This document shows, one piece after another, positions 3,184 through 37,832 of a stretch of 64,000 bases of DNA (positions within the stretch are counted from its first letter, which is position 1; every line of letters starts with the position of its first letter). Both the position numbers and the translations under genes were made by a program. Source of the stretch: Armatimonadota bacterium (lineage in GTDB: Bacteria > Armatimonadota > UBA5829 > JAUSEB01); assembly GCA_030649165.1 (NCBI GenBank), contig JAUSGG010000096.1, positions 1 through 64,000 on the forward strand, written 5' to 3'. The notes below the pieces were generated by a model that ran no database searches, was not told the DNA's origin, and saw only the letters and a program-made list of their open reading frames with translations.

Positions 3184-3529
3184 GGGGGCGATAGGTTTCG
3201 ACAGGGAAATAGCATCATAAGTTGCGCGCCGAGGACCCGCTGGCCTCGTTAAAAGCGGGAAGCCTATAAACGGCACAAATCAGTACGCATTGGCTGCTTA
3301 ATGCAACCCGTCCGCCCGGTCTAAGCCGAAGTGACCGGATACGGGCGTCACAAGATTCGGCTAACCTGTAGGAAAGGCTCGTGGTCCTCCAGGGAAACCA
3401 AGCGAGCTGGCGTATAGGAATCCTGCCTGTGGGAGTCTGAAAGCGCGAGAACCAAATCGCAGGACACGCGCGTAGACGCTTATGAATGCTTTTCCTTGGA
3501 CCCGGGTTCGAATCCCGGCGCCTCCACCA
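3184..3529 (+). ncRNA. ssrA: transfer-messenger RNA (tmRNA)
   Basis: This is a one-piece tmRNA of about 346 nucleotides that rescues stalled ribosomes and tags their products for proteolysis. The 5' GGGGGCG pairs with CGCCTCC just before the ACCA end to form the acceptor stem. The T-arm GGTTCGAATCC stands 3' as in tRNA, and the 5' end carries the hallmark GATAGGTTTCGACAGGG. The tag frame at 3269-3301 reads NGTNQYALAA then TAA, with the typical YALAA end. The pseudoknot-forming 3' portion continues to 3470. Its own promoter lies upstream. No clear intrinsic terminator follows. Confidence 0.97.
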
Positions 3530-3597
3530 TTCTAGAGGTTAGAAGTTAGGGGTTAGAAGGCTCCGGTCGTGATGGCTGGGGCTTTCGGCGTTTTTCT

Positions 3598-3920
3598 GCT
3601 TCGGGACGAAAGGCGGGTGTGTTCAAGAACCCTGCGGAGGGCGTCAGACGTCATTTCGAGCAACCGACCCCGCAGGCGGGGTTATTTCGGAAAGAAAGCG
3701 GCCTATGCCGGTGTTTCGGGATTTGAGGGTTGGGCTTCACACGTATGCTATGGCGGACAACTTCGGGTCCCAACCCGGAAATCCCGAAACGGGGCGCTTC
3801 ATTAGGAGCAGAGCGAGAAATCTGCTTTTGAGCACGATCTTGCATTCCGAAAAAGCAGATTCCTCGTCGTTTCTCCTCGGAATGACGGTTGTTGAACACG
3901 CCCAAGGCGCGTCCCGAAGC
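3598..3920. repeat. nested palindromic element B (second outer type)
   Basis: The outer terminal inverted repeats are GCTTCGGGACG (left) and CGTCCCGAAGC (right), followed inward by GTGTTCAA and TTGAACAC. Within them are the same middle inverted repeat (GTCATTTCGAG ... CTCGGAATGACG) and the same inner hairpin (3713-3790) as in element A. It fills most of the gap between the tmRNA and the next gene and produces a spurious N-terminal extension of that gene's open frame. Confidence 0.8.
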
Positions 3921-3956
3921 ATAGGAAAAGGTCCCAATACACGAAGGAGCGTATGC

Positions 3957-9148: not shown

Positions 9149-9345
9149 TTGGTGTTTCGGGAACTTGTTCCCGAAACGCGCTGCCTTCGGCCTTGAGACA
9201 AGACCGCCTTCACTGCTAGGACCGATTCCCCGCCAAACCCAGTAAACCCTCATAGGCTCCGCAGTCTGATTGTCCCCTGCACGTGCGCTGCAAACGCTCC
9301 CTGACGTTCGCCAGCAGGTAGCGCGCCCCTCTATGGCGAAGAATT
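9149..9345. repeat. dispersed repeat, copy 1 (with 11915-12095)
   Basis: It begins with a perfect hairpin whose 11-base arms are GTTTCGGGAAC and GTTCCCGAAAC (9154-9177), and continues with GCCTTCGGCCTTGAGACAAG and about 150 bases similar to 11915-12095. A short related piece stands at 20086-20130. It occupies the gap between the truncated membrane gene and the chimeric frame at 9461; the remainder of 8997-9460 shows nothing else. Confidence 0.65.
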
Positions 9346-11914: not shown

Positions 11915-12095
11915 ATCGTCGGTGTTTCGGGAGCTTGTTCAGAAACCGAGCGGCCCTCGGCCTTGAGACAAAACCGCCATCACTAGTAGGACCGATTCGC
12001 CGCCAATCTCAGTGAACCCCTGGGAGTTCCGCCGCCTGATCGACCAGCGCGCGCTGCAAGTCCTTCCTGACGTCGGTAGGTCGCGCCCCATCCTC
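11915..12095. repeat. dispersed repeat, copy 2 (with 9149-9345)
   Basis: This is a degenerate version of the repeat at 9149-9345: GTTTCGGGAGCTTGTTCAG, then CCTCGGCCTTGAGACAA, then a shared run around AGGACCGATTC. The rest of the 11787-12177 gap has only the GH30 promoter and, near 12163, the ribosome binding site of the next gene. Confidence 0.6.
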
Positions 12096-12177: not shown

Positions 12178-12963
12178 ATGCGGTTGGAACAGGTGGTAGT
12201 AGATAGTCTGACGGAGATAGAACCCGCCATAAAGGCGGCCAAGAAGGGCGCCGCGGCGGCAAGCGCATCCGGCAGAATGCTGGGTGATGGAGAGATCAAG
12301 AACTTGGGCAAGAAGCTCGCCGAAGCTGAAGAGGAATTGGCCCGCGCGGTGGAAGGGTTTCGCGCGTTCAGAGAGCAATGGGAGACGGTCGATGTCAGCG
12401 GCTACTTCGGCTCGGAAGACTATATTGGGGAGCTTTCCGCCGCCCTCGATGATTCCGGCGTAGACGCGCACAGACTCGCGGACGTGTTGTACGTCTATCC
12501 GGCGCTCGTCAGGTTGGACGCCGGCGCTCTCGCGGCCCGCATAGATAAGAAGATCGAAGCAAGGGTCAGGCCATCCACGCTGGCGAGGATTCTGAAGAAC
12601 ATCCAGAACCGCCCCAGCAGGTTCCCCGCAGGCAGGTTCCTCACCTCGCTCTTCAAAGTCTACAAGGCCCTTGGCGCTCGTAATCTCAGAAAAGGTGAGG
12701 AATGGGCGGGCAAGTCTATGTTCCTGAAGGACATTTACGAGATACTGTCCGCCGCTCCAGGCAGCGACTACACCGAGCAGGAGTTCGTGCGTGACATTTA
12801 TCTGCTGGACGCTTCCGGAGAAGCTCTGGAGGTCCGCGGCCACATCGCTTCACTGGAAGCAAGCAGCTCCACACGAGATGAGAGGAAAACCCTTTCGATC
12901 ATTACGCGGGACGGACAGAGAAGGCTCTACTCCTCCATCTGTTTCAACCCGGTGACGAGGTAA
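12178..12963 (+). CDS. coiled-coil protein opening the ATPase/SNF2 operon
   Basis: Its 261 residues include an early heptad-rich helix (GEIKNLGKKLAEAEEELARA, about 38-75) and a middle helical domain (about 75-190). The C-terminal part is short and beta-rich. No enzyme motif is visible and I do not recognise the family. AGGAG stands 9 bases before the ATG. It is the first gene of a tight plus-strand run (6-base gap to the next), so it is probably a structural or adaptor subunit of that system. GC content and codon use match the following two ATPase-like genes. Confidence 0.6.
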   Translation: MRLEQVVVDSLTEIEPAIKAAKKGAAAASASGRMLGDGEIKNLGKKLAEAEEELARAVEGFRAFREQWETVDVSGYFGSEDYIGELSAALDDSGVDAHRLADVLYVYPALVRLDAGALAARIDKKIEARVRPSTLARILKNIQNRPSRFPAGRFLTSLFKVYKALGARNLRKGEEWAGKSMFLKDIYEILSAAPGSDYTEQEFVRDIYLLDASGEALEVRGHIASLEASSSTRDERKTLSIITRDGQRRLYSSICFNPVTR

Positions 12964-12969
12964 CCGACA

Positions 12970-13956
12970 ATGGAATCAGCGTTGGGCGACTGGCTGGAAG
13001 CAGTAGATAAATACTACCTGAGCGACTTCGTCAATTCGGGTGGATCAGCGTTCAAGCTGCTGCTGGCACGGGACATTTCCGGCGTATCGACCGTTCTGGA
13101 GAAGGTGCGGTCTCTGGCGGAAGGCAGGGGCTATATCTACGTCCAAGTATCGGCCGCCGACACGCGTATCGACAGGATAGACCAACTCTTTTTCGCGGTA
13201 GCCAGGCAAATCGACTGGGATTCACTTGTAGCCAGGGACGCGGCGGACTTCCTTCGGCGCCGCGACTATGAGATTCCTGAAGGGGTGGCGACTAGCGATA
13301 CCGCGGCGATTGCCCAGGCAAACGATTGCGACGAAGAGGATTTGCTCAAAGAGATCCGCCGCGCCACGAGGCAGGAGATAGTCCAGGACAGGCGGATGTG
13401 CAAAGAGTTCAGGACGGCGGTCGCGCAGCTTCGCGGCGCTCAGTTCTTCCCCAGAAGCGTCACGCCCAGCGACACCGAAACGCTGAGCGGCTGGATGCGA
13501 GGCGCCAAAGTCAGCGCGGCGGCCCTGAGAGACCTTCGCATCTACTCGAAGATAGGACGTCACAACGCCAGGGAGATGCTGATCGCATTGGCGCACTGGC
13601 TGGCGACGTCGCTCGGCATGGGTCTGGTTATAGGATTGGACCTGAGCGCTCTTCTCCTGACGCGCCCATCGGCAACGGATGAGATTTCTGCTTCGCTCCA
13701 CTACAGCCGAAGCGCTCTCCTCGACGCATACGAGGTCATCAGACAGTTCATCGATGAGACCGACGATATTACACACTGCCTTATCTGCGCCGTCGCCCCG
13801 CCGGAGATCGAGACCGACGAGAAGAGGTCCGTGTTCAAGTATTACGCGCTGCAGAGCAGGCTTCTGAGCGAAGTCCACGATCTTGATCGCCAGGATTTGC
13901 TTGCCGCGATGGTGCGATTTGGCGATACGAACGCCGAAAAGAAGGACGGCATGTGA
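12970..13956 (+). CDS. degenerate P-loop ATPase-like protein, paired with the next gene
   Basis: The 328-residue protein has the outline of the DUF2791/BrxD-type ATPase next door but lacks its key residues. The place of the Walker A loop reads NSGGSAFKLLLAR instead of GxxGxGKS. The Walker B-like strand (GLVIGLDLSALLL) keeps one Asp and lacks the catalytic Glu. It therefore probably folds like an ATPase without hydrolysing ATP and may pair with the active subunit. Its TGA overlaps the ATG of the next gene by one base (TGATG), a sign of coupled translation and fixed stoichiometry. Kinship to DUF2791 is inferred from order and secondary-structure pattern. Confidence 0.55.
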   Translation: MESALGDWLEAVDKYYLSDFVNSGGSAFKLLLARDISGVSTVLEKVRSLAEGRGYIYVQVSAADTRIDRIDQLFFAVARQIDWDSLVARDAADFLRRRDYEIPEGVATSDTAAIAQANDCDEEDLLKEIRRATRQEIVQDRRMCKEFRTAVAQLRGAQFFPRSVTPSDTETLSGWMRGAKVSAAALRDLRIYSKIGRHNAREMLIALAHWLATSLGMGLVIGLDLSALLLTRPSATDEISASLHYSRSALLDAYEVIRQFIDETDDITHCLICAVAPPEIETDEKRSVFKYYALQSRLLSEVHDLDRQDLLAAMVRFGDTNAEKKDGM

Positions 13957-15215
13957 TGAGCAATGATTCGGTCCTTATGGCAAGGCGAGCAATAGAGGCG
14001 CTGCGCGCGGGAGTTCCTAATCGTGACGCGGTGCGACAGCTTCCCGTGTTCCAGGGAGATATAACCCAGAAGTTTACCGAGACATTGTGGGAGGTGCAAC
14101 AGGCCCCTGCAAACGATGTCACCCCCAGGTCGATGGCGGTTTCGGGGTCATTCGGTTCCGGGAAGAGCCACTTGCTGGCCTATCTGCGGCACGTGGCAAT
14201 AGAGCACAATTTCGTGTGCAGCCAGGTCGTGATAAGCAAGGAGACCCCGCTTTTCGATCCCCTGAAGCTCTTGCGGTCGGCGGTGGAGACGGCGACCGTT
14301 TCCGAGACCGCGGGACGCGCGGTTCCGGAGATACTGTTCGCCGGCAAGTTTGACCGAGACCGGTTCGCCGAACTCGTAAGGTGGGTATGCGAGCAGCCCG
14401 TGCTTGGGGACAGGATCACGCCGTTGCTGAGGATAATCGACGAGCGCCCCGCCGGCGGTGAAGAGTTCCTCGACGAGATCGCCTGGGAATGGTCCGGTTA
14501 CCCCATGAGGGTCAGCGCCATTCGCTCCGCGCTCAAGGAGATCGGCTGTCAGGCTGAGTATCGGGTGAAGACGATGCCGCGGCGCGAGCTTGGACTAAGC
14601 CTCTGGCGGTTCTTGCCTCGACTTTTCCAGGCTGCCGGGTATAGCGGATGGGTGACGCTGATCGACGAAGGCGAGTTGATGCTGCGTTACAGCAAGCTGC
14701 AGCGCGCGAAATCTTATGCGCAGGTGGCCAGGCTCACCGGGACCGCAAAGGACTTTAAGATATCCGGGTTCGTTCCGGTGTTTTCCGTTACGGATGACTT
14801 CTGGGCCACTGCCGAAGCTGAAAAGCGCGACAGCGAAATCCCGGAATGGCTTCGCGACCGAGGCAGGCCGGGAGACGCGGAACTCGCCCGCGACGCTGAA
14901 GCCGGCATGAAGTTCCTCAGACGCGCCAAACCGCTGCGCCCTGCCCGTGGGGAGGAGTTTACCGAACTCAGAGAACGGGTCCGTGACCTGCACTCGCTGG
15001 CATTCAACTGGAATGCGCCGCCGGCCCGCGAACGCGAGGCGCTCTCCTCGCGTTCCGTCAGGGAGCATGTGAAATCGTGGATAACCGAATGGGACCTTAT
15101 GCTTCTCTACCCCGACTACAGGCCGGAGGTCGTGATCGAGGACGTGAAGACGGACTACTCAGAGGATAAGGATCTTTCCCACGAGAACAGCGAAGCGGCG
15201 GAGGGGATGGAGTAA
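13956..15215 (+). CDS. BrxD/DUF2791-like P-loop ATPase
   Basis: ATG at 13956 (AAGGA 8 bases upstream) gives 419 residues. Walker A is GSFGSGKSH, with the Lys at about 70, and Walker B is GWVTLIDEGE at about 231-240, with the DE pair. A sensor-like strand (FVPVFSVTDDFW) follows and the C-terminus is charged and helical. This layout fits the DUF2791 family that includes BrxD of type 2 BREX and, as I recall, the ATPase of the Shango system. Such proteins are thought to remodel DNA-bound complexes. There is no PglZ, methyltransferase or BrxC neighbour here, so it is not a standard BREX locus. Its 3' end is duplicated at 16321-16352. Confidence 0.72.
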   Translation: MSNDSVLMARRAIEALRAGVPNRDAVRQLPVFQGDITQKFTETLWEVQQAPANDVTPRSMAVSGSFGSGKSHLLAYLRHVAIEHNFVCSQVVISKETPLFDPLKLLRSAVETATVSETAGRAVPEILFAGKFDRDRFAELVRWVCEQPVLGDRITPLLRIIDERPAGGEEFLDEIAWEWSGYPMRVSAIRSALKEIGCQAEYRVKTMPRRELGLSLWRFLPRLFQAAGYSGWVTLIDEGELMLRYSKLQRAKSYAQVARLTGTAKDFKISGFVPVFSVTDDFWATAEAEKRDSEIPEWLRDRGRPGDAELARDAEAGMKFLRRAKPLRPARGEEFTELRERVRDLHSLAFNWNAPPAREREALSSRSVREHVKSWITEWDLMLLYPDYRPEVVIEDVKTDYSEDKDLSHENSEAAEGME

Positions 15216-15226
15216 GAGCGTATAAT

Positions 15227-16264
15227 ATGGGAGACATCAAGGCATACAATACTAATATGATAGACGACGTCCGGAGTAAGCTTGCCACATTGCCGCAAGG
15301 CAGCAGGGTTCGGTGTGCTCTATCAGATCAGGAAATAGAGAAGATATCAAGAGCCGTAGAGTCGGAACGGATTGAAGATCTGCGAGGCCGGTCCTATCCA
15401 CCTCTTTTTGTACTCGTCCATAAGCTTGATGTTTCTCAGATCAACGATCTTGACAGCGACATAGAGCTTGTTCTTTCCAGAACCAAACCTAGAGACGCCG
15501 GTCCTCTGCTCCTCAAGCAACTGCTGGAAGACCGCAAATATCGAGCTGGCATATTTGAGATCTACGCAAAGTCTCAGCTATTGAAAGCAGACGAGACGAG
15601 CGTCGAGTTGGATTCCCCCCTTCCCAATGGATGTAACGCAGACATGCGTCTCAGCCTTGGAGGGCGTGAATTCTACCTGGAGTGCACGATACTTTCAGAA
15701 TCCAATGAGGATCGGAAGCGGCTCGAGGAACTCATCGAAGCGAAGAAAAGTAATCCGTCCGCCAGCCAAAGCTGGATGGGCAGCTTTTTGTACGACGCCA
15801 TTCGCCTTTATTACAAGGTATACGACAAGTTGGCAAGGAATTGGAACCCAAAGAAGAGCCAGCTAAGCGACGCGCATCCGAGTGTTCTTGTGATCTCTTT
15901 ATTCGTTGGAAACGGGTCAGTGTCAGCGGAAAGTCCGGGAACTCGCTTCGCTTTGGAGACGCTCTTTTCAGAGAGTTTAGGCAATCCTGAAGAAGAACAG
16001 TCCCAGCCGCCGGAGAACGCGTCCTTGCGCGGGTGGTTGCATGATGCGTGTATACATGGCCGGAACCCTCTTACGGAGAATGAGTACAAGACAAGGTACT
16101 TAGACTTGCTCAGCTCCCGAAAGAAGATCAGTGGTATCCTGCTTTTCCAGGATTGTGAGTTGAAGGAATCGAGAGTCAATTACTCCGCAAATCATCGGAT
16201 AACTCACGGCGAAATGGCGAGATTGGAAGAGTTGTTCGCATCCTCGCCTCGTTGGTGGCCGTAG
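15227..16264 (+). CDS. nuclease-like protein (PD-(D/E)xK-type pattern), probable cargo gene
   Basis: The 345-residue protein has a pattern seen in restriction-endonuclease-like folds. A helix carries Glu 111 (FEIYAKSQLL), then comes NADMRLSLGG with Asp 139 and a strand FYLECTI with Glu 152, in which the usual Lys is replaced by Thr. Around it are helical segments of unknown function. GC content is visibly lower than in the ATPase and SNF2 genes, and a second copy of the upstream gene's last 24 bases lies just after it, so it looks inserted. The ATG at 15227 has only a distant GGAG; an ATG at 15257 is possible. Nuclease activity is a prediction. Confidence 0.45.
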   Translation: MGDIKAYNTNMIDDVRSKLATLPQGSRVRCALSDQEIEKISRAVESERIEDLRGRSYPPLFVLVHKLDVSQINDLDSDIELVLSRTKPRDAGPLLLKQLLEDRKYRAGIFEIYAKSQLLKADETSVELDSPLPNGCNADMRLSLGGREFYLECTILSESNEDRKRLEELIEAKKSNPSASQSWMGSFLYDAIRLYYKVYDKLARNWNPKKSQLSDAHPSVLVISLFVGNGSVSAESPGTRFALETLFSESLGNPEEEQSQPPENASLRGWLHDACIHGRNPLTENEYKTRYLDLLSSRKKISGILLFQDCELKESRVNYSANHRITHGEMARLEELFASSPRWWP

Positions 16265-16320
16265 CCCGGCACATAGAGGACACTTCTTGGTATGCCGCCA
16301 GAATGGCCACTCTAGTGCCA

Positions 16321-16352
16321 CAGCAGAGAAGCGGCTGAGAGGATGGAGTAAC
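16321..16352 (+). repeat. duplicate of the 3' end of the ATPase gene
   Basis: GAAGCGGC(T)GAG(A)GGATGGAGTAA here matches 15191-15214 at 22 of 24 positions, including the stop codon. The two copies flank the low-GC nuclease-like gene, as expected if that gene was inserted by recombination. The remaining bases to 16429 hold a possible -10 (TATAAC at 16384-16389) for the Phd gene. Confidence 0.6.
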
Positions 16353-16429
16353 CTCCGGAGCGGTGACAAAAGCTAGAGCATGGTATAACACACGGGAAAC
16401 CTGTGGGTGTCCACCCGGAGGTCTTGACG

Positions 16430-16699
16430 ATGGTTACGGTTTCATCCGAAGAAGTCAGAGACGGACTGGGAGAACTCATCAATCGGGTCGCCTATGGCGG
16501 CGAGAGGGTCATGGTGACCAGGCGGGGCAAGAAGATCGTCGGCATCATATCGGCGGAGGAACTGGAACTGCTGGAAGAGGTGTTGGATGCCATCGAGGAT
16601 GAAATTGATATACCGCTTATCAAGGAGCGGATGGCTGAGATAGAGCGGGGAGAGTCTGTTACTCTGGAACAGCTCGAGCGCGAAGTCCGTGATCAGTAG
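16430..16699 (+). CDS. Phd/YefM-type antitoxin without a neighbouring toxin
   Basis: ATG 16430 is chosen over an upstream GTG because GGAGG stands 8 bases before it. The 89-residue product has the Phd/YefM N-terminal fold (VSSEEVRDGLGELINRVAYG, then GERVMVTRRGKKIVGIISAE), which binds operator DNA, and an acidic C-terminal tail that would wrap a toxin. No RelE, ParE or Doc gene follows; instead a palindromic element and the 168-residue gene do. It may regulate the surrounding operon or be the remnant of a toxin-antitoxin pair. Confidence 0.85.
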   Translation: MVTVSSEEVRDGLGELINRVAYGGERVMVTRRGKKIVGIISAEELELLEEVLDAIEDEIDIPLIKERMAEIERGESVTLEQLEREVRDQ

Positions 16700-16717
16700 C
16701 CCCGAAGCAGGTATTAG

Positions 16718-16860
16718 CAACAGTTCAGGGTTGGGGAGAACGTCATTCCGAACGAAGATAGGAATCTGCTTTTCCAAGCAGCTCTAAAGCAGATTTCTCG
16801 TCGTTCCTCCTCGAAATGACGTACTGCGGAGCGATGTACTCACTATTCGTGAACTGTTAC
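16718..16860. repeat. nested palindromic element E (outer + middle only)
   Basis: Outer arms AACAGTTCA and TGAACTGTT enclose the middle inverted repeat (CGTCATTCCGA ... TCGAAATGACG, with AATCTGCTTTT against AAAGCAGATTT). The inner hairpin of elements A-D is absent. It sits inside the putative operon, 13 bases before the next gene. Confidence 0.8.
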
Positions 16861-16872
16861 AGGTATTAGGAT

Positions 16873-17379
16873 ATGCCCATACCCTTCCAAGATCAGAACA
16901 CCGTCTCCACCGGCACGGCAGGCTATCTGAAGTTTCTGACGCCTGCCGCGAAGGGCGTGTGGCTTGGGGCGCTGTTCATCATGAATGATCGGGGGGAACC
17001 GGTTGAGTTCACACACGCCCGCGTCTCTTCTCCAAAACCCCTGCTGTGGAGGCCGAACGATCTCCGAATGCGCTGCATCGAGTCGCTTTGCGCTTCCATG
17101 TTCGACGTTTGCCCCGTTGTCCCCGATCTGCTCCTCTGTCTGTCAGAAGAGGGCGACTTGCGTTCTCTTGCCGAGAGCATTAGCTTGAGAGTTCCGGTTG
17201 GCCGGATCACTCACGATGGCTCCGGTGGCGACGTCTCCACCCGGTGGAGCATGGATTTCGCTCCCCATTCGCCTCCCGCCCGGATACACAAGCGTCTTTG
17301 CGAGCGCGGGCTGCTCGTGGAGCCGTTCGAGCGAGCCGAAGCCGGCCTGCGCGAGGTCTACTCGGAGTTGCTGCGTTAA
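16873..17379 (+). CDS. unrecognised 168-residue protein coupled to the SNF2 gene
   Basis: The protein opens with GTAGYLKFLTPAAKGVWLGA and continues FIMNDRGEPVEFTHARV, a compact beta-rich start, followed by alternating helices and strands. I do not recognise a named family and see no catalytic signature. Its stop TAA overlaps the ATG of the SNF2 gene (TAATG at 17377-17381), so the two are surely co-translated, and a direct partnership with the helicase is likely. It could be a specificity or adaptor subunit. Confidence 0.6.
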   Translation: MPIPFQDQNTVSTGTAGYLKFLTPAAKGVWLGALFIMNDRGEPVEFTHARVSSPKPLLWRPNDLRMRCIESLCASMFDVCPVVPDLLLCLSEEGDLRSLAESISLRVPVGRITHDGSGGDVSTRWSMDFAPHSPPARIHKRLCERGLLVEPFERAEAGLREVYSELLR

Positions 17380-19499
17380 TGGCTCGATTCAAGCGCCGGA
17401 AGAATGTAGGAGGAGATTCCGGTCGCCGATTCCTTGCACGGAGTGTCGGGGTTCGGAAACCCCTCCTACGTAAGCTCAGACTCCATCCTCCCCTCAATCC
17501 CGCCCCAGCAAGCGGAGATTTGCGTCTGACTCCTGTAACCGGGACGCTCGACCTCACCCCGCGCAAGCCGGTTGTTGTTCACTCGGGAACGGTCTCCATG
17601 AGGGAATACGCGCTCGATGGTCGGGATTGGGAGCCGGCGCCTCCCGCGTGGCGGCCGCCGGCCGACGCATCAGGCTTCGGCCACTCCAACGAGGGCGGTA
17701 CGGTCGCGCGGGGCTTGCCGCTTTCTCGGATTCTGGCGCTGCTGCTTCAACCTCCACTTTCGGTTTGGATGTCCAGCGAAGGTCCGCTCTGCTGGCAACG
17801 TGAACTGCTCGGCTTTCAAAAGGTCGGCGTGGCGGCGCTGATCGAACACACGTCCATGCTCCTGGCGGACGACATGGGCCTTGGTAAGACGATTCAAGCC
17901 GTTGCGGCCATGCGACTGCTGGTACGCCGCGCGGAAGCGGAACGGATACTTGTGGTGGCGCCGGCGGCGGTTACCAGAAACTGGCGCGAGGAACTGAGGA
18001 CGTGGGCTCCCGAATTACGGACCATCGAGGTGACGGGAACGGCGGCTCAGCGCGTTTGGAAGTGGGACGCCAGAGTCCACGTCAAGATAGTCAGCTACGA
18101 AACCCTTAGGTCGGACTCACAGCGCGCGATAAAGAGGCACGGGGAGTGGGATATTGTTTGTCTGGACGAAGCCCAGCGCATAAAGAACAGCGAATCCGCG
18201 ATCAGCGGCGTAGTCAAAAGCATCAAGTGTCGACGCCGCTGGGCGCTCACGGGGACGCCGCTGGAGAACAGCCTGGATGATGTTCGCTCTATCCTCTCGT
18301 TCCTGCAGCCGGGGGAAATGGAAGCAAGGAGAGGCGGCGACCTCGACGTAAATGCTCTCGGATCGGCGCTGCGCCGGGTCCAACTGCGCCGCAAGAAGTC
18401 GGAAGCGCTGCCGGACTTGCCGCCGAAAACTATCAAGGAAGTATTCGTGCCGTTGACCGGGCGGCAGCGCGATGAGTATGATGCGTTGATCGGAAAAGGC
18501 GTGGAAGAGCTTCGCGGGAAGGGCTCGGACGCTACCGTGACGGATGTGCTCGCCCTGATCACGCGGCTGAAGCAGGTCTGCAATTTTTCCCTGGCGAGTG
18601 GTCGATCTTCCAAGCTGGATGACATGGCCCCCAGGCTTGCCGTGCTCCGGGATGAAGGACACAAGGCCCTCATATTTTCCCAGTTCACGAATGAATCCTA
18701 CGGCGTGCGGCGCATTGCCAGGGCTTTGGAGGAGTTCCGCCCAGTCATCTATACTGGCGACATGACCGCCGAACAGCGCAGACAAGCGCTGGATGCGTTC
18801 CGATCCGACCCGGAGGCCGCGGCGCTCATCCTTTCGCTCAAGGCGGGCGGTGTGGGGCTCAACCTTCAAGCCGCGTCGTACGTCTTTCATTTCGACCGAT
18901 GGTGGAATCCGGCGAGTGAAGCCCAGGCCGAGGACAGATCTCACAGGATCGGGCAGACGAGGGGCGTAAGCGTCTACAAGTACATCTGCGAAGATACCAT
19001 CGAAGAGCGTATTCACGAGATACTGCTCGCAAAACGCGCCCTGTTTGCCGAACACGTGGACGATGTCTGCCTTGACCTCGGACAACGCCTCAGCGATGAT
19101 GATCTTTTCGGCTTGTTCGGCCTGCGGCCGCCGCCGTCACGGGCGGGACAATTACCTAAGCGCGAGGATGACGCGCCGGCGGTCACGGACGTGGAAGCAA
19201 TGGTGCGGATGAGGCTGGCCGAAGAAGGCTACAATGTGGAAGTTCGTGCCGAGGCCGCCGAAGACGTTATCGACCTGGTGGCGGTTAGAACGGACGAACT
19301 GGGAATGGAAACAGCCCTGATGGTTCGCTGCGTTGCGCGGTCAGGCCCGGCGGACGCTGGAGTCATCGAGGATCTCAGCGACTTGCTGCCCGTCGAGCAG
19401 ACCTCAGTCCGCGGGATGGTAGCATGTTCGGCGGGGTTCACCGACAGCGCGGCCCGACTCGCACGGAGACATCACATCTCGTTGTGGACGCCAGAATGA
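17379..19499 (+). CDS. SNF2-family ATPase with C-terminal Mrr-like domain
   Basis: The 706-residue protein has a full SNF2 motor. Motif I is ADDMGLGKT (Lys 170), motif II DEAQ (263-266) and motif III TGTPLEN (291-297). In the second lobe GDMTAEQRR, LSLKAGGVGLNL and the motif VI region AEDRSHRIGQ are present. From about residue 605 a small domain follows with IDLVAV, a strand LMVRCVA and GMVACSAGFTDSAARLARRH. This is the order seen in Mrr-type restriction domains, but the catalytic (Q/E)xK is replaced by RxV. The start at 17379 overlaps the previous stop; an upstream in-frame ATG lies inside that gene. It probably translocates on DNA as the motor of the 12.2-19.5 kb system. Confidence 0.88.
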   Translation: MARFKRRKNVGGDSGRRFLARSVGVRKPLLRKLRLHPPLNPAPASGDLRLTPVTGTLDLTPRKPVVVHSGTVSMREYALDGRDWEPAPPAWRPPADASGFGHSNEGGTVARGLPLSRILALLLQPPLSVWMSSEGPLCWQRELLGFQKVGVAALIEHTSMLLADDMGLGKTIQAVAAMRLLVRRAEAERILVVAPAAVTRNWREELRTWAPELRTIEVTGTAAQRVWKWDARVHVKIVSYETLRSDSQRAIKRHGEWDIVCLDEAQRIKNSESAISGVVKSIKCRRRWALTGTPLENSLDDVRSILSFLQPGEMEARRGGDLDVNALGSALRRVQLRRKKSEALPDLPPKTIKEVFVPLTGRQRDEYDALIGKGVEELRGKGSDATVTDVLALITRLKQVCNFSLASGRSSKLDDMAPRLAVLRDEGHKALIFSQFTNESYGVRRIARALEEFRPVIYTGDMTAEQRRQALDAFRSDPEAAALILSLKAGGVGLNLQAASYVFHFDRWWNPASEAQAEDRSHRIGQTRGVSVYKYICEDTIEERIHEILLAKRALFAEHVDDVCLDLGQRLSDDDLFGLFGLRPPPSRAGQLPKREDDAPAVTDVEAMVRMRLAEEGYNVEVRAEAAEDVIDLVAVRTDELGMETALMVRCVARSGPADAGVIEDLSDLLPVEQTSVRGMVACSAGFTDSAARLARRHHISLWTPE

Positions 19500-19542
19500 A
19501 CTCATCAAAGGTAGAGAGAATAGACAGGAGGTCTGTAGGGTC

Positions 19543-19755
19543 TTGAGCAAGGGCAAGAACGCAAGAGACGCGGCATGGATCGAAGCGAAGCAGAAATGCC
19601 GCTTGAACGACGAGACCATTCGTATGGCGAAGGAACTGGGGATGACGCCGAAGACACTGATCAAGAACATCCCCAGTAAGAGCGAGATGTGGAAGGCGTC
19701 GGTAAGTGATTGGGTACGTGATTTGCACGATAAGCGCTTCAACAGGTCTGGCTGA
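19543..19755 (+). CDS. small basic protein of a widespread uncharacterised family
   Basis: Seventy residues from a TTG start, with AGGAGG about 11 bases upstream. The sequence KNARDAAWIEAKQKCRLNDE ... LGMTPKTLIKNIPSKSE ... DWVRDL matches a short family I know from many bacteria without an assigned function. It is helical and lysine-rich. It lies 43 bases after the SNF2 gene and could be the last gene of that operon or an independent passenger. Confidence 0.6.
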   Translation: MSKGKNARDAAWIEAKQKCRLNDETIRMAKELGMTPKTLIKNIPSKSEMWKASVSDWVRDLHDKRFNRSG

Positions 19756-19770
19756 GGAATTGGGTTCTAT

Positions 19771-20088
19771 GCTTCGGGACACGCCCTGGGAGTGTTCAAA
19801 AAGTCCGAGATCCGCCGCTAACCTCATTTCGAGCAACCGACCCCGCAGGCGTGGTTATTTCGGAAAGAAATCACCCCGTTGTTTCGGGATTTGAGGGTTG
19901 GGCGGCATACGTATGCTATAGCGGACTACTTCGGGTCCCAACCCGGAAATCCCGAAACCGGACGCTTTCTTAGGAGCGAAGCGAGAAATCTGCTTTTGAG
20001 CACGATCTTGCATTCGGAAAAAGCGGATTCCTCGTCGTTCCTCCTCGGAATGACGGTTTTTGAACACTCCCGCCTTTCGTCCCGAAGC
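19771..20088. repeat. nested palindromic element C (second outer type)
   Basis: It has the same build as element B: outer arms GCTTCGGGAC and GTCCCGAAGC with GTGTTCAA / TTGAACAC inside, then the middle inverted repeat, then the inner hairpin at 19881-19958. It is followed by a short piece of the dispersed repeat (20086-20130). Nothing gene-like is seen in 19756-20311. Confidence 0.8.
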
Positions 20089-20311
20089 AAAACCGCCTTT
20101 GGCCTTGAGAGAAAACCGCCATCACTTTTTGCGGAGGCAACGCTCGGGCCACCAAACAACTGAATACAACGATTCTATCTACCAAGAGCGCCGGTGATGT
20201 ACGATCCGGCGCTTTCGGCGTCTTGCGCGTGTAATCCGTGCTCAGAAACGATGTGCGAGCCGGTTCCTCCCCCTCCATCCTTTGGACTGGCTTCCCGGCC
20301 AAAATCACACA

Positions 20312-23264: not shown

Positions 23265-23365
23265 GGCCTAGTTCAGATGGGATCAACAGCCGCAGCCGAC
23301 GATAACGCACCGCGCATGATGCTCGTCGCGCATCTTGGCAATCGTTAGGTATCGCGAGGTTGTGT

Positions 23366-23617
23366 ATGGTTTATGTGAAGTTCTTGGCGGCGATAGGCTT
23401 GATAGGTTCAATTGGCTGGGCCATCGCAGCCCCAGGCTTCGAGTCCGCCCTGGCGGTCATAGGCTCGATCACGGCACTGATCTCAGCGTGTCTCGCTGGA
23501 AAACGAAAGGCACAGCGTGCGCAACAGCATCAGTCTGTCTCAGAGTCCTCGATAGGCGTGCAGGCCGGTGGAGATGTGAATATCGGAAGCATTGGCGGCG
23601 ACAAGCATGCTGAATAA
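23366..23617 (+). CDS. small membrane protein with QAGGDVNI motif
   Basis: From the ATG at 23366 (GAGG upstream) 83 residues are encoded. Two hydrophobic stretches (about 5-21 and 27-46) are followed by a basic segment and then SSIGVQAGGDVNIGSIGG. The second gene starts with a closely similar NSTAIQAGGNVTI. The shared motif, plus an 11-base overlap of the two genes, argues that both proteins assemble through it, with this one as membrane anchor. Confidence 0.6.
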   Translation: MVYVKFLAAIGLIGSIGWAIAAPGFESALAVIGSITALISACLAGKRKAQRAQQHQSVSESSIGVQAGGDVNIGSIGGDKHAE

Positions 23618-24662
23618 AGACCAACAACAAGATGTCGCTGAGAATAGCACTGCTATCCAAGCAGGAGGGAATGTCACTATCACAAAGGCGGGCCTTACTT
23701 ACGCAGAGGTCCGAGCTGTTGCGCTGGACGTGGCTAAAGCGACCTTGTACGAGCTTGCGGAAGTTGCCAAAGAGACAGCGAGAGCTAGAGTTGAGGAGAT
23801 CACCGAAGGATTCCTGTCGAGACTTCAGAAGGAACACCCCGCCGGCCTTGAGAAAGCACACGACCCCGACTTCCAGTACGCGCTCTTTACAGTTCAGAGA
23901 GAATACGCCAGGAGTGGAGACAAGGACCTTGGCGATCTTCTGGTCGATCTTTTGGTCGACAGAAGCAAGCAAGAGCAGCGCGATATTCTACAGATTGTCT
24001 TGAACGAGTCCCTCAACACTGCACCTAAGCTAACTGAGAGTCAGCTGGCCGCCTTGGCTGTGATCTTTCTGTTCAAGTACACGCAGAATTTCGGTGTTGG
24101 CAATCATCACATGTTTGGCGAATACCTTGACAGGTATGTCTCTCCGTTTGCTTCAAAAGCCGTAAAGAACCTAGCCTGCTATCAGCATCTTCAGTTCTCT
24201 GGTTGCGGAGCGATTGAGCTTGCATCAAATAGCCTTGAGTCCATGCTGGGCAAGGCATACCAAGGGCAGTTCCTGAAGGGATTTGAGGAGAAGGAAGTTG
24301 CGGATAGGGCCGTGTCTATCGGGCTCGATCGGAGACTCTTTATGCCGTGCCTTAACGACCCGTCCAAAGTGCAAGTCGGTGTAAATAGCAAAGAGTTGCT
24401 AGACAAGGCTTTTGAGGAATATGCAATTCCGCCCGAGGATCGAGACAAGATAACTGAACTGTTTGACCTGGGAAAAATGAATGGCACGGAAATCAAAGAC
24501 AAATGCATTGAGATCAGACCCTACATGTCCGGACTGTTTGAGACATGGTCGGAGTCTGCGATGAAACAGTTCAGCCTCACGAGTGTAGGAATCGCGATTG
24601 GTCATGCGAATATCAAGCGGTTGGCTGGCGAGTTCTCGGATCTATCCATCTGGATAAACTGA
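23607..24662 (+). CDS. LPO_1073/Vpar_1526-like protein
   Basis: The 351-residue protein starts with a short tail, NSTAIQAGGNVTI, then LTYAEVRAVALDVAKATLYE and a long helical part. This order matches the LPO_1073/Vpar_1526 family, which is widespread in bacteria and has no established function. No transmembrane segment or enzyme motif is visible. GC content is below that of flanking genes, a sign of transfer. The start overlaps the upstream gene. The layout resembles two-gene immunity modules with a membrane part and a soluble sensor, but that is inference. Confidence 0.65.
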   Translation: MLNKDQQQDVAENSTAIQAGGNVTITKAGLTYAEVRAVALDVAKATLYELAEVAKETARARVEEITEGFLSRLQKEHPAGLEKAHDPDFQYALFTVQREYARSGDKDLGDLLVDLLVDRSKQEQRDILQIVLNESLNTAPKLTESQLAALAVIFLFKYTQNFGVGNHHMFGEYLDRYVSPFASKAVKNLACYQHLQFSGCGAIELASNSLESMLGKAYQGQFLKGFEEKEVADRAVSIGLDRRLFMPCLNDPSKVQVGVNSKELLDKAFEEYAIPPEDRDKITELFDLGKMNGTEIKDKCIEIRPYMSGLFETWSESAMKQFSLTSVGIAIGHANIKRLAGEFSDLSIWIN

Positions 24663-37795: not shown

Positions 37796-37832
37796 AAAAG
37801 CAGATTCTTCGTCGTTCCTCCTCAGAATGACG
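37796..37832. repeat. half of the middle palindrome
   Basis: AAAAGCAGATTCTTCGTCGT and CTCCTCAGAATGACG form the right arm of the middle inverted repeat found in elements A-F; the left arm is missing. It lies between the U32 and radical SAM genes. Confidence 0.65.

Follow-up and report, generated by a model that had tools for sequence, protein, structure and literature searches.

Do the genes between positions 12178 and 19755 of a 64,000-nucleotide stretch of Armatimonadota DNA (hereafter, the window) form an undescribed system, and does that system serve defence? The original prediction, made from five of these genes, had proposed a multi-gene system distinct from the standard defence sets and devoted either to defence or to DNA maintenance. 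We lean towards reading the locus as one version of a modular system, undescribed so far and probably anti-phage, in which a complex of three proteins, A, B and C, would load or activate an SF2 motor on foreign DNA.

The five genes all lie on the forward strand, in the order A (12178-12963, 261 aa), which is the first core gene, B (12970-13956, 328 aa), C (13956-15215, about 419 aa, starting at ATG 13956 or GTG 13953), E (16873-17379, 168 aa) and F (17379-19499, 706 aa, starting at ATG 17379). The 6-base gap between A and B, the TGATG overlap of B with C and the TAATG overlap of E with F are located exactly as predicted. All five genes are real, but they are not contiguous. The 1657 bp between C and E hold gene D (15227-16264, + strand, 345 aa), which is separated from C by 11 bp, and a Phd/YefM antitoxin gene on the same strand (16403-16699; PF02604, E-value 6.6e-11) with no adjacent toxin. 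They also include a piece of a dispersed MITE-like repeat (16743-16821; repeat families D6/D7). The end of the module had also been placed too far downstream, at 19755: F stops at 19499, and positions 19543-19755 belong to another ORF, of 70 aa and with no Pfam match. The five families originally picked are nevertheless exactly the conserved set, which recurs in other loci without the inserts.

Gene D has no family at a significant E-value in Pfam, PADLOC or NCBIfam and is present in one of the 291 genomes of the phylum, that of the window itself. We rejected it as a conserved component since it is absent from all other Armatimonadota genomes; a PD-(D/E)XK motif noticed in it by eye found no support and is not claimed. 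In the nearest relative of the locus, whose C is 76% identical, the same gap is occupied by a Phd-like antitoxin gene together with one for a PIN toxin. Because D is unique and the relative carries the Phd-like and PIN genes there, we regard the gap as an insertion spot of this lineage, with D lying outside the conserved set. The module as a whole is flanked by a 48-nt direct repeat (+ strand, left copy 11937-11984, right copy 20079-20126). The 26-nt core of this repeat is found at 9189-9214, 11959-11984 and 20101-20126, around the module and a neighbouring GH30-like gene, and has just these three occurrences in the 5.48-Mb genome with up to 2 mismatches. The repeats around the module are a possible insertion scar, and could conceivably be attachment sites.

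Other features of the window were also observed. Two copies of about 325 bp of a MITE-like element with terminal inverted repeats of about 35 nt occur at 3597-3921 and 19767-20092 (89% alike over 214 bp), with fragments near 16743-16821, in the C-E gap, and near 37806-37832. A tmRNA gene (3184-3529, tag GTNQYALAA) lies close to one of the copies. A small possible membrane protein (23360-23617) and a 356-aa protein without Pfam or PADLOC match (23592-24662) have in common a QAGG(D/N)V motif, in the forms VQAGGDVNIGS or IQAGGNVTI.

To characterize the module proteins, we searched them against Pfam, PADLOC and NCBIfam. Both B and C match the BrxC_BrxD family (PF10923) above its gathering cut-off of 22.2 bits. 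C (E-value 1.8e-18, 67 bits) carries the motifs GSFGSGKSH and LIDEGE and is thus the P-loop ATPase with a DE Walker B that had been predicted. B (E-value 6e-10, 39 bits) is its degenerate twin and has no Walker A, again in agreement with the prediction. The difference between the two holds across the family: Walker A is retained in 98 of 98 relatives of C, and Walker B in 96 of them, while none of the 78 relatives of B has a Walker A. In 12 ORFs from Nitrospirota, Nitrospinota and CSSED10-310, B and C are fused. At locus L058, a distant version of the set includes a B whose P-loop is intact, and this comparison of sequences suggests that B is the decayed form of a once-active ATPase.

Neither A nor E, the unrecognised 168-residue protein of the original prediction, matched any family in the three databases. 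A is predicted by AlphaFold, with a pLDDT of 95.4, to form a long N-terminal helical hairpin followed by an alpha/beta C-terminal region. Its model returned nothing at E <= 0.001 from the PDB or a viral library, and the family as a whole, in an alignment of 57 rows, gave no consistent Pfam match. A is found in 19 Armatimonadota genomes; C is adjacent in 18 of them, and in the remaining one A is truncated by the end of the contig. The predicted model of E (pLDDT 83.2) matches the Endonuclease V (EndoV) structure 3hd0 in Foldseek (E-value 1.9e-6, probability 1.00) and also resembles Argonaute structures and the C-terminal part of UvrC; the predicted fold is of the Endonuclease V / RNase H-like kind. 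At the level of sequence, E has no match to Endonuclease V (PF04493) in Pfam, and the alignment of E with an Endonuclease V profile built from relatives is not significant (hhalign E-value 0.14), though the register agrees. We therefore assign E to EndoV by fold only. Across the E proteins, acids are not conserved at the columns that match the EndoV catalytic acids, which we placed by the positions generally known for EndoV. E would therefore probably be an inactive nuclease fold that serves to bind. All 14 strong matches of E in the phylum adjoin C, and the genomes with A-B-C and no adjoining E have no E elsewhere.

F is an SNF2 translocase (PF00176, E-value 6e-50) of the ZorD/DpdE type (PADLOC E-values of 1e-81 for ZorD and 1e-67 for DpdE), with an Mrr-like C-terminus (PF04471 Mrr_cat, E-value 6.6e-9). 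Both domains of the predicted SNF2 motor with an Mrr-like tail are therefore present, but the tail of the window copy is degenerate. Most relatives that bear the domain read GGIDL...QCKN or similar, and the window copy reads DVIDL...RCVA, with QCK replaced by RCV. Among the 31 F proteins that could be classified (14 more were unclassifiable), the motif is kept in 16, the domain is absent in 13, and the domain is present with a lost motif in 2, including the window copy. Since Mrr is often absent or its motif lost, the nuclease of F is not the essential part.

We then compared the module with the known systems to which these families belong. As the original prediction had noted, there is no PglZ, BrxC, methyltransferase or TerB protein among the seven module genes, and the 10 flanking window proteins that were tested contained no recognised defence system. 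The likeness to the BrxD-BrxHI pair of type 2 BREX lies in a BrxC/BrxD-family ATPase beside an SF2 helicase, but the module has no BrxC, PglX, PglZ or PglW, the BREX core (PglZ, BrxC, PglX) is equally absent from the 10 flanking proteins, and C scores 52.2 bits against the BrxD equivalog NF033438, whose cut-off in NCBIfam is 350. Shango, composed of the TerB-like SngA, the BrxD-like ATPase SngB and the Lhr-like helicase SngC, also combines a BrxC/BrxD-family ATPase with an SF2 motor. It differs from the window module, which has a pseudo-ATPase twin, an SNF2 rather than an Lhr-like motor and no TerB-like protein, and in which A and E correspond to no Shango protein. Neither the TerB-like SngA nor SngC appears among the best PADLOC matches of the module, and window C scores 34.5 bits with SngB, compared with 550 for the SngB of Actinoplanes (L135). 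F belongs to the same group of SNF2 translocases as DpdE and the ZorD of type I Zorya, and some of its relatives share the Mrr-like nuclease tail, but it lacks the long N-terminal regions of both. It reaches 181.8 bits with ZorD (cut-off 1500), with no match to ZorA, ZorB or ZorC in the module, and 78 bits with DpdE (cut-off 500), with no other Dpd match shown. The similarity to DrmD of DISARM is at the SNF2 level only (81-83 bits, cut-off 610-950), and no other Drm match is shown. A search of openly licensed PubMed Central papers gave no description of the module: DUF2791 had no match and PF10923 only an unrelated one. A 2026 BREX survey describes the BrxD-BrxHI pair, and searching its text by terms did not reveal the A-B-C module.

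Is the set conserved elsewhere? Relatives of C occur in 26 of the 291 Armatimonadota genomes. Twelve further loci in Armatimonadota have the genes in the order A-B-C-E-F, without any additional gene family in common in their flanks, and the order is also found in several other phyla, a recurrence beyond what chance would give. This conserved order in unrelated genomes, together with the lack of a BREX, DISARM or Shango core in the module and tested flanks, supports the proposal that the set is separate from the standard ones; most of the loci found elsewhere also lack a known core. A wider scan of one genome per species gave 170 encoded relatives of C, and the best 80 loci span 11 phylum-level groups. 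A, B and C are three ordered genes in 58 of 81 loci, and apart from those with the B-C fusion most of the remainder run into the end of a contig or have gene starts that are hard to place. The tree of C clusters by phylum (18 changes, compared with 50.8 when the labels are shuffled), with incomplete congruence. Since the tree partly follows phylum, transfer has not been rampant. C was found in no phage or viral contig, and the only plasmid match was a distant one, in Persicobacter. Within families the genes are patchy, being present in 7 of 81 genomes around Solibacter (one of them weak) and in 7 of 251 Micromonosporaceae. Such a distribution is typical of an accessory system, and on these grounds we rejected a universal housekeeping role.

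The five genes do not always stay together. We examined the partners of A-B-C in the 70 loci with enough downstream sequence: E and SNF2 are present in 23, SNF2 without E in 12, a PbeA-like helicase directly after C in 9, Shango lies alongside in 2, and there is no motor nearby in 24. The alternative partners were identified in PADLOC as DpdE/ZorD-type SNF2 proteins and as PbeA-like helicases (5e-61, with one full-length match at 5e-207). A likeness to PbeABCD is found in the motor of some A-B-C loci, with SNF2 instead in the window. The partner state changes 16 times on the C tree, compared with 36.9 for shuffled states. Motorless loci include a recurrent A-BC arrangement in Nitrospirota and solitary A-B-C sets in Bryobacterales; because no motor is in reach in these 24 loci, A-B-C may work by itself or with a partner encoded elsewhere. 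Conversely, a conserved E-like/SNF2 pair occurs without A-B-C in several Armatimonadota (L142-L148, for example L146:4006-6337). Since A-B-C is constant, E-F is exchanged and E-like/SNF2 pairs occur alone, the five-gene set looks like two joined units, an A-B-C core and a separable E-F motor unit. The boundary of the predicted system is revised accordingly: A-B-C stays together, but E-F is often missing or replaced by other motors. At one locus with A-B-C and the full-length PbeA-like helicase (L202:1830-15202), SbcC-like, SbcD-like, RNase_H_2/AAA helicase and MerR genes lie alongside, in what is possibly a larger defence or repair cluster.

A-B-C and SngA-SngB-SngC are arranged divergently in Actinoplanes and in an actinobacterial MAG. 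The Actinoplanes genes match SngA, SngB and SngC in PADLOC at 1e-58, 8e-166 and 6e-263, and the matches beside A-B-C range overall from 1e-58 to 4e-263. Among 251 Micromonosporaceae genomes, A is present in 7, SngA in 10 and both in 5. In all five of the latter, A-B-C is adjacent and divergent to SngA; Shango is complete in four, and in the fifth SngA lies at a contig edge. The co-occurrence is significant (P-value = 6e-7, hypergeometric test; 2e-4 when the two genomes that were already known are left out), with counts that represent species rather than independent events. The five Shango-linked loci may descend from a single joining, given that L132 and L135 fall into a single clade when C is used for the tree. 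Shango protects against phages when expressed (PMC10250203). Another gene beside Shango and A-B-C (L197:13846-19001) encodes a protein of more than 1430 aa, possibly an SMC-like ATPase, which has a GGGKSS motif but matches nothing in Pfam. In Armatimonadota, the flanks of the loci contain 91 PADLOC families at 1e-15, compared with 33 in control regions. This excess is driven by few genes (type I-C CRISPR, a methyltransferase and DarTG), so that enrichment near defence genes, which the original prediction had named as a possible support, is suggestive only. The defence reading gains independent support from the Shango adjacency in Micromonosporaceae and from the defence-type motors that serve as partners.

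From these patterns we infer a mechanism. A, as scaffold or sensor, B, as pseudo-ATPase, and C, as active AAA+ ATPase, would form one complex. C, a member of the BrxC/BrxD, ORC/Cdc6-like group, would hydrolyse ATP, with B as its fixed, catalytically dead partner subunit. The complex, perhaps by means of A or B, would recognise the DNA of an invader and would load or switch on an SF2 DNA motor. We propose motor loading by analogy, because a constant A-B-C with changing motors fits the idea put forward for BrxD-BrxHI of type 2 BREX, namely that the ATPase may load the helicase (PMC12839542). In the window, the motor would be the SNF2 translocase F together with E, a putatively dead Endonuclease V-fold partner that may grip nucleic acid. 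Translocation would disrupt replication or expression of the invader DNA, the nuclease domain on the motor being optional. Elsewhere, the same core would work with a PbeA-like helicase or beside Shango.

Several observations count against this reading, namely the motorless loci, the C tree that partly follows phylum, the possible origin of the Shango-linked loci in a single joining, the lack of C in phages and viral contigs and the absence of a recognised defence system among the 10 neighbours tested. Could the module instead serve DNA repair or chromosome maintenance, with the ATPase complex and the SNF2/E pair remodelling damaged or stalled DNA and taking no part in immunity? The resemblance of E to Endonuclease V and to the C-terminal fold of UvrC would fit such a role, as would the E-like/SNF2 pairs that lie without A-B-C among ordinary genes in several Armatimonadota, and a C tree that partly tracks phylum. 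We nevertheless consider it unlikely, given the patchy distribution even within families (7 of 81 and 7 of 251 genomes), the exchange of motors, the recurrent Shango adjacency and the loss of the EndoV catalytic acids from E.

The Shango adjacency in five Micromonosporaceae genomes and the variable partners elsewhere might also mean that A-B-C is an accessory, which widens or regulates motor-based defences (Shango, PbeA-like, ZorD-type) and is no system of its own. This seems rather improbable to us, since A-B-C has no motor nearby in 24 of 70 loci and SngA is found in the absence of A in a further five Micromonosporaceae genomes, which means that Shango does not need A-B-C. It is more doubtful still that the system is aimed at plasmids or conjugation and not at phages: an ATPase with a translocase would suit a general exclusion of foreign DNA, but the sole linked system of proven function, Shango, is anti-phage (PMC10250203). 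We give very little credence to the idea that the locus is the decayed remnant of BREX, DISARM, Zorya or Shango. C and F do come from families common to those systems, but the equivalog scores reported above for BrxD, ZorD, DrmD and DpdE are far below their cut-offs, A and E have no PADLOC counterpart, and the same set recurs in many phyla.

Our preferred reading thus remains a modular, probably anti-phage system with A-B-C as its core. Since the family is widespread, includes two proteins without a match in Pfam, PADLOC or NCBIfam and has no description in the openly licensed papers searched, surveys of defence systems probably miss this module. More speculatively, A-B-C may be a motor-agnostic AAA+ licensing complex of immunity in many phyla, in which a pair of active and dead ATPases couples the sensing of an invader to any SF2 motor linked with the complex (SNF2 and its inactive partner of Endonuclease V fold, a PbeA-like helicase or the Shango machinery); the loading of motors by ATPases would then be a principle common to type 2 BREX, Shango and the A-B-C family. 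No role has been settled for the BrxD-type ATPases found in BREX and Shango. With its always-dead twin, the occasional fusion of B and C and a constant ATPase that meets changing motors, the A-B-C family makes the idea of motor loading testable by motor swaps.
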